The notes beneath the pieces were generated by a model that did not search any database, was not told the origin of the DNA, and worked only from the letters and a program-made list of their open reading frames with translations. The position numbers were made by a program, and so were the translations under genes. A stretch of DNA of 6,327 nucleotides from Candidatus Fermentibacterales bacterium (GTDB lineage: Bacteria; Fermentibacterota; Fermentibacteria; Fermentibacterales; JAFGKQ01): NCBI GenBank assembly GCA_016928495.1, contig JAFGKQ010000213.1, positions 1 to 6,327 of the forward strand, written 5' to 3'. This document shows, piece by piece, positions 1-5,389 of the stretch. The first letter of the stretch is position 1, and the number at the start of each line of letters is the position of its first letter.

Positions 1-73
1 CCACGGCCGTCATGCCGGCCTCGTGCACCGGCACCAGCACGGGCCTCGAGTACTCTGCGGGGAAACGATCCAT
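1..73 (-). CDS. Start of an unrecognised gene, cut by the window edge
   Basis: Only the first 24 codons are visible, reading MDRFPAEYSRPVLVPVHEAG and then MTAV. The ATG at 73-71 is chosen because AGAGGT (complement of 82-87) lies 8 nt upstream, a good Shine-Dalgarno sequence and spacing, and the frame stays open to the window edge. The gene follows the S26-like protease with an 89-bp gap, on the same strand, so it may be the next member of the peptide-modification cassette. The fragment is too short to assign to a family; it has no signal peptide and no cysteines. Identity is unknown, but the existence of a gene here is fairly likely. Confidence 0.55.
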   Translation of the reverse strand, partial: MDRFPAEYSRPVLVPVHEAGMTAV

Positions 74-162: not shown

Positions 163-585
163 TCAAGATCGCGGTCGGCGCCTTCGTGCAAGAAGCGAGA
201 GGATGCGGGCCGCAAGCCTGACCGCGCCGTCGGGGAGCCACAGAGGGAGCCACGCCGCTCTTCCGGGCACGCTCCTCCACCTGCCCCGCCTGAGCACGGC
301 CGTCACCAGCAGGCACGGCGTGTCCGAGGGCACGGGCCTGTCCGGCCCCGATCGGTCGCCCGCCGTGATGGCCAGCCTTCCGCTCCCGGCCTCGGGACCG
401 ACAATCCTGGCCAGCCTGTGGATCCTGTTCCCCCCGTCCTGCCTGAAGACGACGACCGAGCCGGGCTCGACCCGTCCTATCAGAGCGGGCCGGCCTTTCA
501 GAAGGTCTCCGTGGCCTATGGCCGGCCACATGGATGTGCCCTCGCTGTAGACGAGAACACGGCCCGGCGCTGAAGGGCGGCTCAC
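163..585 (-). CDS. Signal-peptidase-like S24/S26 protease with a Ser/His active site
   Basis: A 140-residue protein of the S24/S26 peptidase fold, probably the processing protease of the cassette. The nucleophile motif is EGTSMWP (residues 15-21, Ser18), followed by GDLL (26-29), the beta segment PGSVVVF (41-47), NRIHRLARI (53-61) and AGD (75-77). In bacterial signal peptidase I the general base is lysine. Here the matching position is His56, as in SipW-like, archaeal and ER-type enzymes. There is no clear N-terminal membrane anchor; the C-terminus has an amphipathic or hydrophobic stretch (about 111-133) and an Arg-rich tail. The GTG start overlaps the kinase stop as GTGA, implying translational coupling. 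In this company it most likely trims a leader peptide or processes an exported product (inference). A generic S24-type regulator is less likely because no DNA-binding domain is present. Confidence 0.8.
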   Translation of the reverse strand: MSRPSAPGRVLVYSEGTSMWPAIGHGDLLKGRPALIGRVEPGSVVVFRQDGGNRIHRLARIVGPEAGSGRLAITAGDRSGPDRPVPSDTPCLLVTAVLRRGRWRSVPGRAAWLPLWLPDGAVRLAARILSLLARRRRPRS

Positions 586-1109
586 GAGCGGGCCAGCTCC
601 TCCAGCGGGGCCGAAGGGTCCTCTTCCAGGGGCCAGCGGAAGATCACACAGCGGGTCCGCTCGACGATCCGCCCGGCGTTCGTGAGGTCCCTCACGGATT
701 CAGGAGAAGCCGTTCCGGGCGTCCAGAGACTGCGGAAGAGCCTGTACAGGGCATAGGTCTTCCCCACCTCCACCAGAGCGATCGGTCTGCCCTTCTCGAG
801 GAAGCAGACGGCGGCCAGGGGGGCGCACTTGACCTCGAGCGGGCGCCCGAACAGCACCTGGAAGCCCATCGTCGCCAGAGCGTCTATCCTGCCGTCTTCA
901 CGGATGATCAGAGCGGTCTCGTCGTCACCCATCGCCTGATGCCCCATGACGTGCAGCCTCCCGGCCAGGGTGCTCTTGCCGCCTCCGGATGGCGCCAGGA
1001 AGAGAAGCGCCCTGCCCGCGACCAGCGCGCTCGAGGCGTGAACCAGGAGGCCTCTGCCCCGCAGCGCTGCCATCTGGGCCCTGGCGGCCCTGCTGGTTCT
1101 CTCCGGCAT
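582..1109 (-). CDS. HPr-kinase-like P-loop protein (ScmC-like)
   Basis: A 175-residue protein matching the C-terminal kinase core of HPr kinase/phosphorylase. It has the entry motif LLVHASSALVAGRA (21-34), Walker A APSGGGKST (39-47), and the acidic GDDE motif (61-64) that corresponds to the magnesium and catalytic region of HprK. It lacks the N-terminal domain of true HprK, and no HPr/PTS gene is near, so a role in catabolite control is unlikely. HprK-like proteins are known in RiPP clusters; in some lasso-peptide systems they phosphorylate a serine of the precursor. Here it sits between a radical SAM enzyme and a protease, so a peptide kinase or ATP-dependent accessory role is inferred. The ATG (1109-1107) overlaps the upstream TGA as TGATG. 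The cassette resembles SynChlorMet, where ScmC has this fold (recalled from TIGRFAM, not searched). Confidence 0.8.
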   Translation of the reverse strand: MPERTSRAARAQMAALRGRGLLVHASSALVAGRALLFLAPSGGGKSTLAGRLHVMGHQAMGDDETALIIREDGRIDALATMGFQVLFGRPLEVKCAPLAAVCFLEKGRPIALVEVGKTYALYRLFRSLWTPGTASPESVRDLTNAGRIVERTRCVIFRWPLEEDPSAPLEELARS

Positions 1110-2173
1110 CACCGCGGGACCAGCCTCGTGGGAGGGAAGAGACCTGCCTCGTCGGCGACAGCACAGAACGGGCTCGGGGAGTCGAGCCTGCCCGTGAGGC
1201 AGTAGTTCTCGGCCAGGCAGTAGCCCATACAGGCATTCCTGAGGAGACACCTGGAGCAGATGCCCCGCAGCCGATCAGGCACGGTCTCACGGATGCTGCG
1301 GAGAAGGGTGGAGCCACTCCAGACGGCATCCAGGCCTTCCGACCTGGCGTCCCCGGCGACGAGCGAGGGCTCTATCAGCCCCACGCCGCACGGCGACGCT
1401 CTCCCGTCGGGCAGGAGACCCAGGTTGGTGGTGACCGAGCAACTCCCCGCGAACGGGAGCCTGCCTGCCGCGATGAACGCCGGCGGGATGGAGAAGTGGA
1501 CCGAGCGGGAGTATCGTCGCTCGATCCAGGCGTTGAGCTGGATCGTAGCCTTCACCTCTTGCACGGAATAGGCTCTGCTGCGAAGACCGGCCGCTCTGCC
1601 CAGAGGCCCGAGGCTGTTGAACTTGAGCGACGACGCGCCCAGGGACTCCGCCCTGGAGGCCACGCTGTCCAGCCAGATGCCGTCCGTGCCGAGCAGCATG
1701 GATATGACCTGGAACGGAACGGAGAGGTCCCGGAGCATGCCGGCGAACGAGAGGGTTCTCTCGAACGCGCCCTGCCTTCCCCTGAAGCGGTCATGCTCCT
1801 CCTTCCGCCAGGAGTCCAGGCTCAACGACACGTGATCGGGCGGATGCGATCGCCAGAGATCGGCCAGGCCGTCGGGAACAACGGTGCCGCTGGTCTCGAC
1901 GTATGTCGAGAGCCCCCTTCGAGCCGCCTCGTAGTAGAGGTCCGGGAAATCGCTCCTGATCAGCGGCTCTCCTCCGGTGAACTTCACGCTCTCGAGACCC
2001 AGCCCGAGCGCCTGGTCCAGGAGATCGCCGAACTCCGCGGGAGTCAGCTCCTCCCTGTCTCTCGGCCAGGTCCTGAACCCCCCCCGTCTCGACGTGGAGT
2101 CCACCCAGCAGTGTGCGCAGGCCAGGCTGCAGCCCCGGGTGACGCTGTAGTACAGGCAGGTCAGCGGCGTCAT
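1109..2173 (-). CDS. Radical SAM/SPASM peptide-modifying enzyme (ScmF-like)
   Basis: A 354-residue radical SAM enzyme with a SPASM domain. The N-terminal CSLACAHC motif gives C15, C19 and C22, which bind the SAM-cleaving 4Fe-4S cluster. FTGGEP (65-70) binds the SAM amino group, and LSLD (117-120) is a typical barrel strand. The C-terminal SPASM motif is complete: C245-X11-G-X4-C262, then C306-X2-C309-X5-C315-X3-C319 and a later cysteine (C325 or C337), enough for auxiliary clusters. SPASM enzymes typically modify ribosomal peptides or protein side chains by radical chemistry. The N-terminal phrasing (LYYSVTRGC..HCW, DQALGLGLESVKFTGGEP) closely recalls the ScmF family from memory. ATG (2173-2171) overlaps the upstream radical SAM stop as ATGA, with AGGGGGA upstream. 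The substrate is unknown. Confidence 0.93.
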   Translation of the reverse strand: MTPLTCLYYSVTRGCSLACAHCWVDSTSRRGGFRTWPRDREELTPAEFGDLLDQALGLGLESVKFTGGEPLIRSDFPDLYYEAARRGLSTYVETSGTVVPDGLADLWRSHPPDHVSLSLDSWRKEEHDRFRGRQGAFERTLSFAGMLRDLSVPFQVISMLLGTDGIWLDSVASRAESLGASSLKFNSLGPLGRAAGLRSRAYSVQEVKATIQLNAWIERRYSRSVHFSIPPAFIAAGRLPFAGSCSVTTNLGLLPDGRASPCGVGLIEPSLVAGDARSEGLDAVWSGSTLLRSIRETVPDRLRGICSRCLLRNACMGYCLAENYCLTGRLDSPSPFCAVADEAGLFPPTRLVPR

Positions 2174-3237
2174 TCCCCCTGCCGCCCACCTTCGATGTAG
2201 CTCTTCAGGCAGTCCAGCCTCGGAGCGCCGAAAACCTGATCACATACCGGCGCCGCTGCGAACCACTGGACCGGACAGCCCGGCTGGCAGACATCGAACC
2301 AGGCGCATTCGGCACAGGGGCCTTCCCGGGCTGCTGACCTGGCCTCCACGATCGCCCTGAACTCCCTTGCAGCAATGCCGCTCAGGATGTCCTCGAGGCT
2401 ATCACGCAGGATGTGCCCGAGGATGACGTGGGGAATGTGGTCGCAGGGGGCAACGGAGCCGTCCGGCAGGATGACCAGTCTGTCCAGGCCTGCTCCGCAA
2501 GGCAGTCCACGCGGCCTTCCGCCGCCCGCCTCGACCTCCAGGGCGTATTCCTCCATGCGCAGCGCCGTGCCGGTCACGAAGCCGGGCCGGGCGCGGGCAA
2601 GCCTGAGCACCTGCCTGCCTATCTCCCTTCTCTCGCGGAGTGGAATGGCAAGCCCGCTCTCAGAGCCAGGGCCGGCTTCCACGAAGTAGTTGAGCCTGAT
2701 CCACCGCGCCCCGCTCTGCCGGGCCAGCTCGACCGTCTCCTCGAGCCTGTCCCGGTTCAGGGTCACGACAGTGCAGTAGAACCCGAAGGGAACGCCGAGG
2801 TCTCGAAGCCTGCCGGTACCGCTCATGGCCTTCGAGAAAGCCCCGTCGCCCCTGATGGCGTCGTGCGTGGATGAGTCGGGGCCATCCAGACTGGTCATGA
2901 CGCAGTCCAGCCTCGGGAGCGATTCGGCAAGGGCTTCCGCGCTCCGTTCCGAGAGCAGTGTTGCGTTCGTGTTCAGATAGAGCCGGAAGGGCATCCGGGA
3001 CAGCATGCGCCAGAGCTCGGGGAAGTCCTCCCTCATCAGCGGTTCTCCGCCCGTGACCGTGACCTGGAGGACCCTGAGCTCCGCGAGGCTCTCGAAGACG
3101 CTTCTCCAGCCTGCAAGGTCGAGCTCCCCCGGAAGCTCTCCGTGGCTGAGCACCGAGCAATGCGGGCAGGATAGGTTGCATCTGCCGGTCACCATTACGC
3201 TCAGGCTCCTGGGAGCGAGGCAGGCCGGCACCGCCAT
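2170..3237 (-). CDS. Radical SAM/SPASM peptide-modifying enzyme (ScmE-like)
   Basis: A 355-residue radical SAM/SPASM protein, the first of two in tandem and clearly divergent from the second. CNLSCPHC supplies C20, C24 and C27 for the radical cluster; TGGEP is at 62-66 and TSLDG at 115-119. The SPASM set is C247-X12-G-X4-C265, then C308-X2-C311-X5-C317-X3-C321 and a final cysteine at C332 or C343, so both auxiliary-cluster motifs look intact. It follows the PqqD-like gene with a 10-nt gap; PqqD-like proteins deliver the precursor leader to such enzymes. The ATG at 3237 is used here, but GGAGG lies almost against it, while GTG two codons later (3231) is at ideal spacing, so initiation may be at Val3. 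An upstream in-frame extension would overlap the PqqD-like gene and has no family support. Confidence 0.93.
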   Translation of the reverse strand: MAVPACLAPRSLSVMVTGRCNLSCPHCSVLSHGELPGELDLAGWRSVFESLAELRVLQVTVTGGEPLMREDFPELWRMLSRMPFRLYLNTNATLLSERSAEALAESLPRLDCVMTSLDGPDSSTHDAIRGDGAFSKAMSGTGRLRDLGVPFGFYCTVVTLNRDRLEETVELARQSGARWIRLNYFVEAGPGSESGLAIPLRERREIGRQVLRLARARPGFVTGTALRMEEYALEVEAGGGRPRGLPCGAGLDRLVILPDGSVAPCDHIPHVILGHILRDSLEDILSGIAAREFRAIVEARSAAREGPCAECAWFDVCQPGCPVQWFAAAPVCDQVFGAPRLDCLKSYIEGGRQGE

Positions 3238-3247
3238 TCCTCCGGCT

Positions 3248-3520
3248 CTAGGATGCGGGGCCCCGGAGCAGGCCCGCTTCGTCCAGGTCGGACAGGAAGG
3301 CATCGAGGTCCGCCTCGATGCTCTCCTCTCCCGGGTATCGCCTCAGGAGCTCCTCGAGTATGCTCTTCCTGGTCGTGCCCGGCTCTATGAGGGCACAGAT
3401 GCCCCAGGCGACTCCCTCCACCACCCGGACATCACCGGTGTCGACATCGAAGAGGATAGCCCCGCCCGGCTCTTCCCTGAAAACGACGTTGGGAGCGAAC
3501 TCCAGTACCCTCTCCGCCAT
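3248..3520 (-). CDS. PqqD-like RiPP recognition element protein (ScmD-like)
   Basis: A 90-residue stand-alone PqqD-type winged-helix protein, the peptide chaperone that binds a RiPP leader and presents it to radical SAM partners. The family pattern is visible: a beta segment GGAILFDVDTGDVRVV (19-34), the hydrophobic WGICALIEPGTT segment (39-50), a helix SILEELLRRYPG (53-64) and a C-terminal helix DLDAFLSDLDEAGLL (71-85). Its length matches the family (about 90 residues). The ATG at 3520-3518 is preceded directly by AGGAGGAGGA. It is the first gene of the minus-strand operon, transcribed from the divergent promoter region. Longer readings would run through that promoter into the opposing gene and are rejected. 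Confidence 0.9.
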   Translation of the reverse strand: MAERVLEFAPNVVFREEPGGAILFDVDTGDVRVVEGVAWGICALIEPGTTRKSILEELLRRYPGEESIEADLDAFLSDLDEAGLLRGPAS

Positions 3521-3568: not shown

Positions 3569-3591
3569 ATGGGCCACCTGGAGGTGATCAA
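3564..3591 (-). promoter_or_regulatory. Candidate divergent promoter of the radical SAM cassette
   Basis: On the minus strand TTGATC (complement of 3586-3591) and TATTAT (complement of 3564-3569) are separated by 16 bp. The -35 matches 4 of 6 consensus positions and the -10 matches 5 of 6. Its -10 overlaps the plus-strand -10, so the two promoters would compete for RNA polymerase. The predicted start near 3557 leaves a leader of about 36 nt before the PqqD-like gene. It is weaker than the plus-strand promoter. Confidence 0.4.
3580..3589 (+). promoter_or_regulatory. Near-perfect Shine-Dalgarno sequence deciding a GTG start
   Basis: GGAGGTGATC is complementary over ten bases to the usual 3' end of bacterial 16S rRNA. 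The GGAGG core ends 8 nt before GTG 3593. This selects the GTG rather than the ATG at 3569, which lies upstream of the site and inside the -10 element. Confidence 0.75.
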
Positions 3592-3592
3592 C

Positions 3593-4003
3593 GTGATCCT
3601 GAAAAAGGCGCCCTCTTGTCTCCTGGCTCAGGCCATGGCCCTTCTCCTGCTCGTGCCCGGCCTGTGTCAGGCCTTCCCCGGCCTCGAGCCATCCGGTCTG
3701 ACCCTGTACGACAACAGCGGCAGCAAGTGGTTCGTTCCGACAATATCCCACCGCGTCTATCTCGGGTATACTACGGGTTCCAGCGGCAGCTGGTCCACGG
3801 GGGCCTACACCGGAGTCCTCGGCTTCGACCTGACCACCAACCTGAGGGCCGAGCTGAGCCTTGGCGTCGCGCAGCATCTGCTGTTCTCGCGGGGCTCCGA
3901 GGCCAGGGAGTTCATGGGTGAGGTGCTCCTGGACTGGAGACCGGTCGAGAGCCTTCGGCTGCAGCTGAACATCGGCGGGGTCATCCCGGACAGGACGCCC
4001 TGA
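3593..4003 (+). CDS. Small secreted protein with beta-strand-like segments
   Basis: A 136-residue exported protein of unrecognised family. The GTG start gives a textbook signal peptide: MILKK, then a hydrophobic core AMALLLLVPGL (14-24), with likely cleavage after Ala27 (CQA). The mature part alternates polar and non-polar residues in short stretches (HRVYLGYTTG, GAYTGVLGFDL, RAELSLGVAQ, GEVLLDW, LRLQLNIGG). This fits four or five amphipathic beta strands, as in small outer-membrane or periplasmic beta proteins. It does not end in the aromatic residue usual for outer-membrane barrels, and is short for one. It is the first gene of the plus-strand operon. The next gene begins in the -1 frame at or near its stop, so the two are probably translated together. 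Cys25 is not in a lipobox. Confidence 0.7.
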   Translation: MILKKAPSCLLAQAMALLLLVPGLCQAFPGLEPSGLTLYDNSGSKWFVPTISHRVYLGYTTGSSGSWSTGAYTGVLGFDLTTNLRAELSLGVAQHLLFSRGSEAREFMGEVLLDWRPVESLRLQLNIGGVIPDRTP

Positions 4004-4974
4004 CCGGGGGAGAGGTAGCCGCGTACTCCCTGGTTCTGCTGTTCCCGCTTCTCGCCGCTCTGGTCCAGGGCTCGTCTTCCTCATGGGAGTCGCTCTTCGA
4101 GCAGGGAAGGATCGCAGAGGGCGCGGAGGACCTCGCGTCGGTCGTGCGCTCCGACTCGCTCAGGGCCTCGTGCTACATGCTCTGGAGGCTCGCCTGGGCG
4201 TGGAACCTCCTCGAGGAGCCGGACAGCGCTCTCGGACCGGCTCTCCGGGCGTGGTCGGAGAGGCCTCAGTCGGAGCTCTACCTGGGCGAGTACCTGAGGG
4301 CTCTCTACAGGCTGGGCAGGTTCCGGGAGATCCTGGACCTGGAACCGCTGCTGAGGGACGGGAGCGGAGGATATTGCAGGTACGTGATGGCGAGAGCGGA
4401 GCGAGAGCTGGGGCTTCCCCGGGTCTCGACGCAGGCTCTGCTGCAACTGCTTGCCTCGGATCGGGACTCGGTTGCGGCGGACGCAGCTCTCTGGCTATCC
4501 ATACTCCTCGAGACCGAGCTGGAGCCGGACAGCCTGCTGGCTCTCGCCCTGCTTGCAGCCGGCCCGGGGCCGCCCGGCAGCGACATGCCCTCGACGAGGC
4601 TGGCCGACGCCTACATGGAGATGGGCATGCTCGGGGAGGCTTCGGCGCTGCTCTCCGCCATCCGCCTATCGGGCTGTTGCGGTTATCACTACTGGGTATG
4701 CGCGTCCGAGCTTGCCCGAAGGGAACTGGACCACGAGAGAAGGATATGGGCGTGCAGGAGGGCGGTGGAGTGCAGGCGCGTCCCGGCCACCCTGAGGAGC
4801 CTCGCATGGGCGCTGTACTCCGGGGGCAGAGCCGCTCTACGGGATGGCGATCTCGCTCTCGCTCTCTCGAGGCTTCGCGAGGTCTCCTCGATTCCGGAGG
4901 CTCCCGATGATATCGCTCTGGAAGCCGACTCTCTGGCGGCGCTGGTTGAGGCCTTCGCTTCTCCCGGCAGCTAG
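4000..4974 (+). CDS. Exported helical-repeat (TPR-like) protein with a non-canonical start
   Basis: An alanine-, leucine- and arginine-rich protein of helix pairs resembling tetratricopeptide/Sel1-type solenoids, for example the stretches starting LYLGEYLRALYRLGRFREIL, RLADAYMEMGMLGEASALL and LAWALYSGGRAALRDGDLAL. It probably acts as an extracytoplasmic scaffold; the partner is unknown. Codons 4024-4080 encode a clear signal peptide or membrane anchor (YSLVLLFPLLAALVQG). Yet the frame contains no ATG, GTG or TTG between the in-frame stop at 3919 and GTG 4144, which lies after that segment. I take CTG 4000 as the start: it overlaps the upstream TGA as CTGA and has AGGA at 3992-3995. CTG 4030 or a frameshift from the previous gene are alternatives. 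A conventional gene caller would start at 4144. From CTG 4000 the protein is 324 residues. Confidence 0.65.
   Translation: MTGGEVAAYSLVLLFPLLAALVQGSSSSWESLFEQGRIAEGAEDLASVVRSDSLRASCYMLWRLAWAWNLLEEPDSALGPALRAWSERPQSELYLGEYLRALYRLGRFREILDLEPLLRDGSGGYCRYVMARAERELGLPRVSTQALLQLLASDRDSVAADAALWLSILLETELEPDSLLALALLAAGPGPPGSDMPSTRLADAYMEMGMLGEASALLSAIRLSGCCGYHYWVCASELARRELDHERRIWACRRAVECRRVPATLRSLAWALYSGGRAALRDGDLALALSRLREVSSIPEAPDDIALEADSLAALVEAFASPGS
4896..4900 (+). promoter_or_regulatory. Ribosome binding site of the YfiM-like gene inside the upstream gene
   Basis: GGAGG sits 6 nt before ATG 4907, within the coding sequence of the helical-repeat gene. It supports a start that overlaps that gene by 68 nt. 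The alternative TTG 4946 has no comparable site. Confidence 0.55.
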
Positions 4975-5389
4975 CCTTCTGCTGATCCTCGTGGCGGGCA
5001 CCGCCGCTCCCAGGCCCCCGTGGCCCGGGAGCTCGGGGAAGCCTGTCGACGGGGATAGTGGCGCTGGCGTTTTCCTGAGCCGGAGTCACTACGTCAGCGC
5101 CGGCCTGACGGATCAGGAGAGCCCCGGTGCGGCCCGCAGCGACAGGCAGGCTCACCGGAGGCTTGCCGGCGCCATGCTGGTCCTGGTCTTCCGGATGCTG
5201 GTAGATTCGGGTTGCGGGGAGGCGGAGGCCCTGGCAGCGGCCAGCGCCGTATGCGCGGCTTCGGGCCTGCTCAAGGAAATACTCGACGGGGCTGCCATCG
5301 GCGGCTCCGGCTTCGACATCGGAGACCTGGCCGCCGACGCTGTGGGAATAGCGGCGGGAGTCGGGCTCCTGTGTGACCGGGAGAGGTGA
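4907..5389 (+). CDS. YfiM/DUF2279-like exported protein
   Basis: A 160-residue protein with an Arg/Trp-rich N-terminus, a hydrophobic signal segment ([17 protein letters not shown], about 18-34), and a mature part resembling the YfiM/DUF2279 family. Family-like signatures are [13 protein letters not shown] (56-68), matching the DK..H...S..LT block though the usual Asp-Lys is replaced, and LKEILDG (122-128) with GSGFD (133-137) and [12 protein letters not shown] (140-151), matching the KE..D...GSG..D...D..G block of E. coli YfiM. The biochemical role of YfiM-type proteins is unknown. Unlike E. coli YfiM this copy has no lipobox cysteine, so it is probably a soluble periplasmic or membrane-anchored protein. 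It overlaps the upstream gene by 68 nt, and secA begins 5 nt after its stop. Family assignment is from pattern memory. Confidence 0.65.
5383..5389 (+). promoter_or_regulatory. Ribosome binding site deciding the TTG start of secA
   Basis: GAGGTGA overlaps the stop of the preceding gene. The GAGG core ends 8 nt before TTG 5395, while the overlapping GTG at 5386 would sit inside the site itself. The TTG gives the usual SecA opening M-L-G-K. Confidence 0.65.

Follow-up and report, generated by a model that had tools for sequence, protein, structure and literature searches.

A likely SynChlorMet-type RiPP operon from a diverged clade of Candidatus Fermentibacterota, with its precursor gene cut off by the contig end

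On which peptide, if any, do the radical SAM enzymes of this locus act, and to which known system do they belong? The window (the whole stretch of DNA analyzed, a contig of exactly 6327 bases from a Candidatus Fermentibacterales bacterium) carries genes for a PqqD-type protein, two radical SAM/SPASM enzymes, an HprK-like kinase, and an S26-like protease, a set that the original prediction had taken for a variant of SynChlorMet. At the level of sequence, we establish the parts and how they are ordered, as well as a precursor that co-occurs with the cassette, and the locus is very likely a RiPP operon whose enzymes act on this precursor; that it is a SynChlorMet-type operon in a diverged clade, working by the mechanism proposed below, is a likely reading that we hold with good confidence. 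The main idea of the prediction, the type of cassette, stands, whereas its trusted-cutoff check does not, nor do its views that there was no obvious precursor, that the protease was added, and that the set has no identified substrate.

All five genes are found at the predicted positions on one strand (Table 1), and the predicted joins of 1 to 4 bases are present at all but one junction: the ScmE- and ScmF-like genes overlap by 4 bases, the ScmF-like and kinase genes by 1, and the kinase and protease genes by 4, with the PqqD and ScmE-like genes separated by a 10-base gap. The cysteine motifs of the two radical SAM/SPASM enzymes are complete, as had been read, each enzyme carrying both the radical SAM CxxxCxxC and the SPASM cysteines. 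A GTG at 1250 was rejected as the kinase start (it would overlap the ScmF-like gene by 142 bases, and relatives' kinases begin at the ScmF stop). Between the cassette and secA, on the plus strand (3569 to 5389), lie three conserved genes; they encode a short protein that looks secreted, a TPR protein, and a small membrane protein.

Table 1. Genes of the cassette in the 6327-base window
Feature	Position	Strand	Remarks
PqqD-type RiPP recognition element (ScmD-like)	3248..3520	-	Pfam PF05402, 39.2 bits vs cutoff 23.4
ScmE-like radical SAM/SPASM enzyme	2170..3237	-	Alternative start 3303; best NCBIfam match ScmE
ScmF-like radical SAM/SPASM enzyme	1109..2173	-	Best NCBIfam match ScmF
HprK/P-fold kinase (ScmC-like)	582..1109	-	Motifs H24, GGGKST, DD
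S26B-like serine protease	163..585	-	GTG start; no N-terminal membrane segment; Ser18, His56, Asp77
Truncated precursor-peptide gene (ScmA-like position)	1..73	-	ATG at 73; 24 codons, MDRFPAEYSRPVLVPVHEAGMTAV; runs off contig end

The NCBIfam models have trusted cutoffs of 100 bits for ScmD (TIGR04248), 125 for ScmC (TIGR04249), and 400 each for ScmE (TIGR04250) and ScmF (TIGR04251), and none of these, on which the original prediction had staked its check, is reached in the window. ScmF is the top model for the window's ScmF-like enzyme at 225.7 of 400 bits and ScmE for the ScmE-like enzyme at 149.5 of 400, so that the unrelated radical SAM families envisaged as a refutation do not provide the best hits; PqqD scores 22.7 of 100 bits against ScmD and the kinase 22.7 of 125 against ScmC, and HprK and signal-peptidase models also match the kinase and protease weakly. 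These best matches, the weak ones to ScmC and ScmD, and the conservation of the five-gene set bear out a SynChlorMet-like RiPP cassette. In a tree of 99 ScmF sequences, the window's type forms one clade (support 100/99) that is found here only in Candidatus Fermentibacterota. The window's ScmF is its most diverged member (branch 1.92); because this is the longest branch, its exact place within the clade is unsure, and the protein could have drifted in function. Since the trusted cutoffs fail, we treat the cassette as a sister clade of SynChlorMet that works like one and do not class it as SynChlorMet.

The likeness nonetheless extends to the whole gene content: SynChlorMet (TIGR04248 to TIGR04252, e.g., in delta proteobacterium NaphS2) likewise combines PqqD, two radical SAM/SPASM enzymes, the HprK-like ScmC, an adjacent S26-like protease, and precursors with a (Y/W)xxP leader and CxxG repeats, the window's own core being out of view. 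Its kinase, however, has about 290 to 317 amino acids against about 175 in the window's type, and its protease has a C-terminal extension that the window's type lacks. The window's cassette further differs in its separate clade, its gene order D-E-F-C-protease-A, and the scores of all its proteins below trusted cutoffs, and the precursors of its clade differ in a conserved C-terminal tail ending in GL and in fewer CxxG motifs.

Contrary to the claim that no precursor was obvious, one is present but truncated by the contig end. It starts 89 bases past the protease stop, in the same position as in relatives' cassettes (most of which have the precursor directly downstream of the protease), with a Shine-Dalgarno-like AGAGG upstream and a YxRPxL leader motif. 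The precursor family was obtained by clustering genes adjoining relatives' cassettes, namely, short ORFs right after the protease, and a profile of 12 relatives' precursors, with the window left out, matches the window's minus strand from 79 to 2 at an E value of 5e-4 and also picked up further copies; a genome-wide E value of 4.6e-5 came from a profile that included the window's leader and hence is not independent, as the 5e-4 is. Complete Fermentibacterota precursors have 61 to 92 amino acids and share FPxxYxKPxLxxI (containing the YxKPxL leader), GWxAxC, CxxG motifs (usually at least two), and a conserved GL at the C terminus. The window's leader is without the GW that relatives have at the same place, and its CxxG motifs are unseen because its core lies beyond the contig end: no other contig of the genome shares its first 100 bases, and a search of that genome for the CxxG DNA pattern gave a result barely above its control. 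Against Pfam, no precursor scores over a cutoff (there is only a weak DUF5972 leader match), and five Fermentibacterota precursors gave nothing notable against NCBIfam, where ScmA emerged only with a wider set. The C-terminal tail of the clade's precursors, approximately LxNPxxxxxGL, was not seen in other phyla and is perhaps a follower or a protease site.

The order of the five genes, D-E-F-C-protease, is found again in about 20 genomes of the order, so the arrangement is not due to chance, and the conservation of the five-gene set that had been put forward as a check is observed. Relatives' cassettes often adjoin secA and its neighbors, which flank the window's cassette too. Across 42 genomes of the order, whose cassettes were typed by eye on the basis of gene order plus kinase and protease matches, 22 have both cassette and precursor, one (G033) has the cassette only, one (G038) has the precursor only, and 18 have neither (Fisher p of 1e-9). 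The G038 precursor (C39:3166-3420) has an internal stop and no detected cassette of the window's type and is perhaps a relic. In one genus, another cassette type (L075 and L077) occupies the slot between the secA and penicillin-binding protein genes that elsewhere (L059-L072) holds the window's type.

Several genomes of the order, the window's included, hold a second, different cassette. That of the window's genome lies on C153 (L055), has an ScmF and an ScmE over their cutoffs (549.3 and 578.3 bits, respectively), and places by its ScmF beside Chlorobiaceae sequences in the tree. From 676 to 3445, this locus (G000:C153) consists of PqqD, ScmE, ScmF, and then a 60-amino-acid ORF that has four CxxG motifs behind a WxxP leader, with neither a kinase nor a protease adjoining. 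Further pairs of PqqD and radical SAM genes in the same genome, L056 (G000:C73) and L057 (G000:C25), are apparently not of the window's cassette type.

Clusters of this kind, whose peptides carry repeated Cys-x-x-Gly motifs, are present in many bacteria and methanogens. Scanning 84,980 named genomes yielded 80 loci with ScmF relatives, spread over many phyla and methanogens and including NaphS2, which we take to be one of the genomes on which SynChlorMet was defined; kinase matches occur in 63 and protease matches in 45, and 39 loci are complete, with all five gene types. At 50 of the 80 loci there are ORFs that combine an aromatic-xxP leader with three or more CxxG motifs; five rounds of shuffling all 80 gave none. 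Of 58 such ORFs, 56 have a cassette gene within 500 bases, and 56 share the strand of the nearest one. Every one of the 39 complete loci has a precursor candidate: the scripted rule gave 34, and the other 5 came from the Fermentibacterota profile or from relaxing the rule and judging by eye; the scripted candidate of L182, which resembled a sugar-kinase fragment, was dropped from the count for complete cassettes. Precursor cores contain from 2 to about 20 repeats of C-x-x-G-[ST]-x-[AP]-x3, with a modal Cys spacing of 10; CxxG was a selection criterion of the scan, whereas A/P at +6 and Cys at +10 were not. A Delongbacteria candidate (L167:2990-3736) has about 236 amino acids and 20 CxxG motifs, and L160 encodes two candidates with 14 cysteines each (7324-7704 and 8938-9309) and two kinases in its cluster.

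These loci bear on two further points. The protease had been regarded as an addition, but its presence in 45 of the 80 loci, across phyla and in NaphS2, where it lies directly 3' of the kinase, makes it an ordinary member of the set, and we reject a lineage-specific addition. The statement that the Scm set has no identified substrate is outdated, as NCBIfam already models an ScmA precursor (TIGR04252, cutoff of 35 bits): in NaphS2, all four Scm proteins score over their cutoffs and the precursor matches the ScmA model at 69.1 bits. This model falls short of the window's clade, with no match over the cutoff in the 42 genomes of the order and 1 of 20 precursors at an E value of 0.028. A literature search, with subscription journals mostly outside its coverage, returned no paper on SynChlorMet, on ScmE/ScmF in the sense of this cassette, or on ACGX/CXXG together with radical SAM.

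Characterized systems resemble the cassette in part. Phosphorylated lasso peptides (paeninodin, BsfA/BsfK) share a YxxPxL leader, a PqqD-type element, and an HprK-like kinase (PMC10368454), but the window has radical SAM enzymes and an S26-like protease in place of a cyclase and B2 protease, and neither lasso cyclase C nor the B2 protease was found among its proteins with Pfam and NCBIfam. Its kinase has the HprK/P fold (model pLDDT of 89.7; best PDB matches, HprK/P) and, with H24, GK, D62, and D63 kept in the alignment, the H, GxGKS, and DD residues that matter in the lasso-peptide kinase BsfK (PMC10368454). Ser18, His56, and Asp77 of the protease, which correspond to the signal-peptidase boxes, are invariant in 36 of 36 sequences, and its model (pLDDT of 86.3) has weak fold matches to LexA (E of 2e-3), SipA, and signal peptidase, up to 4e-2. 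The StsA/StsB/StsC system of Actinomycetota has in common a SPASM maturase and a PqqD-type element that binds a WxxP leader (PMC12710340); the StsB model matches the window's ScmE at 90 bits and the StsA model brushes two precursors (E of 0.009), but these scores are far below cutoffs, and the window has two maturases, a kinase, and an S26-like protease. GeoRSP likewise has PqqD and SPASM proteins, with the window at 85.8 of 400 bits (TIGR04303), below the cutoff.

We propose that the stand-alone PqqD would bind the YxxPxL leader and hand the peptide on to the ScmE/ScmF pair; binding of W/Y-xxP leaders is known for recognition elements of the PqqD type, as tested for the sactipeptide StsA (PMC12710340), and YxxPxL is the form used by lasso-peptide leaders (PMC10368454). 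The enzyme pair would then act on the Cys-x-x-Gly motifs in the core, where the likeliest reaction would join the Cys sulfur to the alpha carbon of Gly and so form four-residue thioether rings. Thereafter, the HprK-fold kinase would phosphorylate the peptide on a hydroxyl residue, its leader would be cut off by the cytoplasmic S26B-type protease, and the product would be exported, probably by the ABC transporter encoded near some relatives' cassettes. Thioether rings are our first guess because streptosactin has a Cys31-Gly34 thioether, the C-x-x-G spacing (PMC8172795), although its enzymes and precursor family differ and the likeness here is in the CxxG motif only. Motif and precedent together suggest such Cys-Gly chemistry for the pair at a little under an even chance.

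Other chemistry by the radical SAM pair (C-C crosslinks, epimerization, Gly oxidation, or decarboxylation, with the cysteines free or metal binding) is a serious contender, if a less than even one. SPASM enzymes catalyze many reactions, and the StsB, WgkB, PqqE, NirJ, and AhbD models match at comparable secondary scores; two enzymes suggest two reactions, and a C-to-G ring alone does not account for the conservation of A/P at +6 and of C at +10. Favoring the ring is the Gly at +3, which fits the streptosactin link and dominates in other phyla (0.88 of Cys, against 0.16 for Gly overall, a contrast partly selected by the scan). That the operon yields a cofactor and not a secreted peptide is improbable: PqqD and SPASM enzymes do resemble the PQQ and mycofactocin systems, and the system is widespread in bacteria and methanogens, but a repeat number varying from 2 to about 20 is unlike an invariant cofactor precursor, and ABC transporters and nucleotidyltransferases are encoded close by in some relatives. 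Heme-pathway or other non-peptide radical SAM enzymes (AhbD, NirJ, or sulfatase maturing) with short ORFs as chance neighbors are a very remote prospect, for although the AhbD and NirJ models reach about 65 to 125 bits, they are outscored by the ScmE and ScmF models (an AhbD/NirJ-type identity is rejected for the window's enzymes), the cassette includes PqqD, its occurrence goes together with that of the precursor, and no shuffle contained an ORF that has a leader plus three CxxG motifs.

Returning to the RiPP operon, we suggest tentatively that the SynChlorMet relatives overall may be one large uncharacterized RiPP class of bacteria and methanogenic archaea, in which a (Y/W)xxP leader would precede up to about 20 C-x-x-G-[ST]-x-[AP]-x3 units, each of which the radical SAM pair would convert to a four-residue Cys-Gly ring before the peptide is phosphorylated and then cleaved by a dedicated S26B-type protease; the window's clade would be a distinct subclass. 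With a precursor family for this clade and a rule for finding precursors beside ScmE/ScmF pairs, what the two enzymes do becomes directly testable, and the system also links radical SAM peptide modification with an HprK-fold kinase and an S26B-type protease. Its product is probably a small, chemically modified peptide, and it is present in uncultured phyla and methanogens, from which, to our knowledge, few modified peptides are known.
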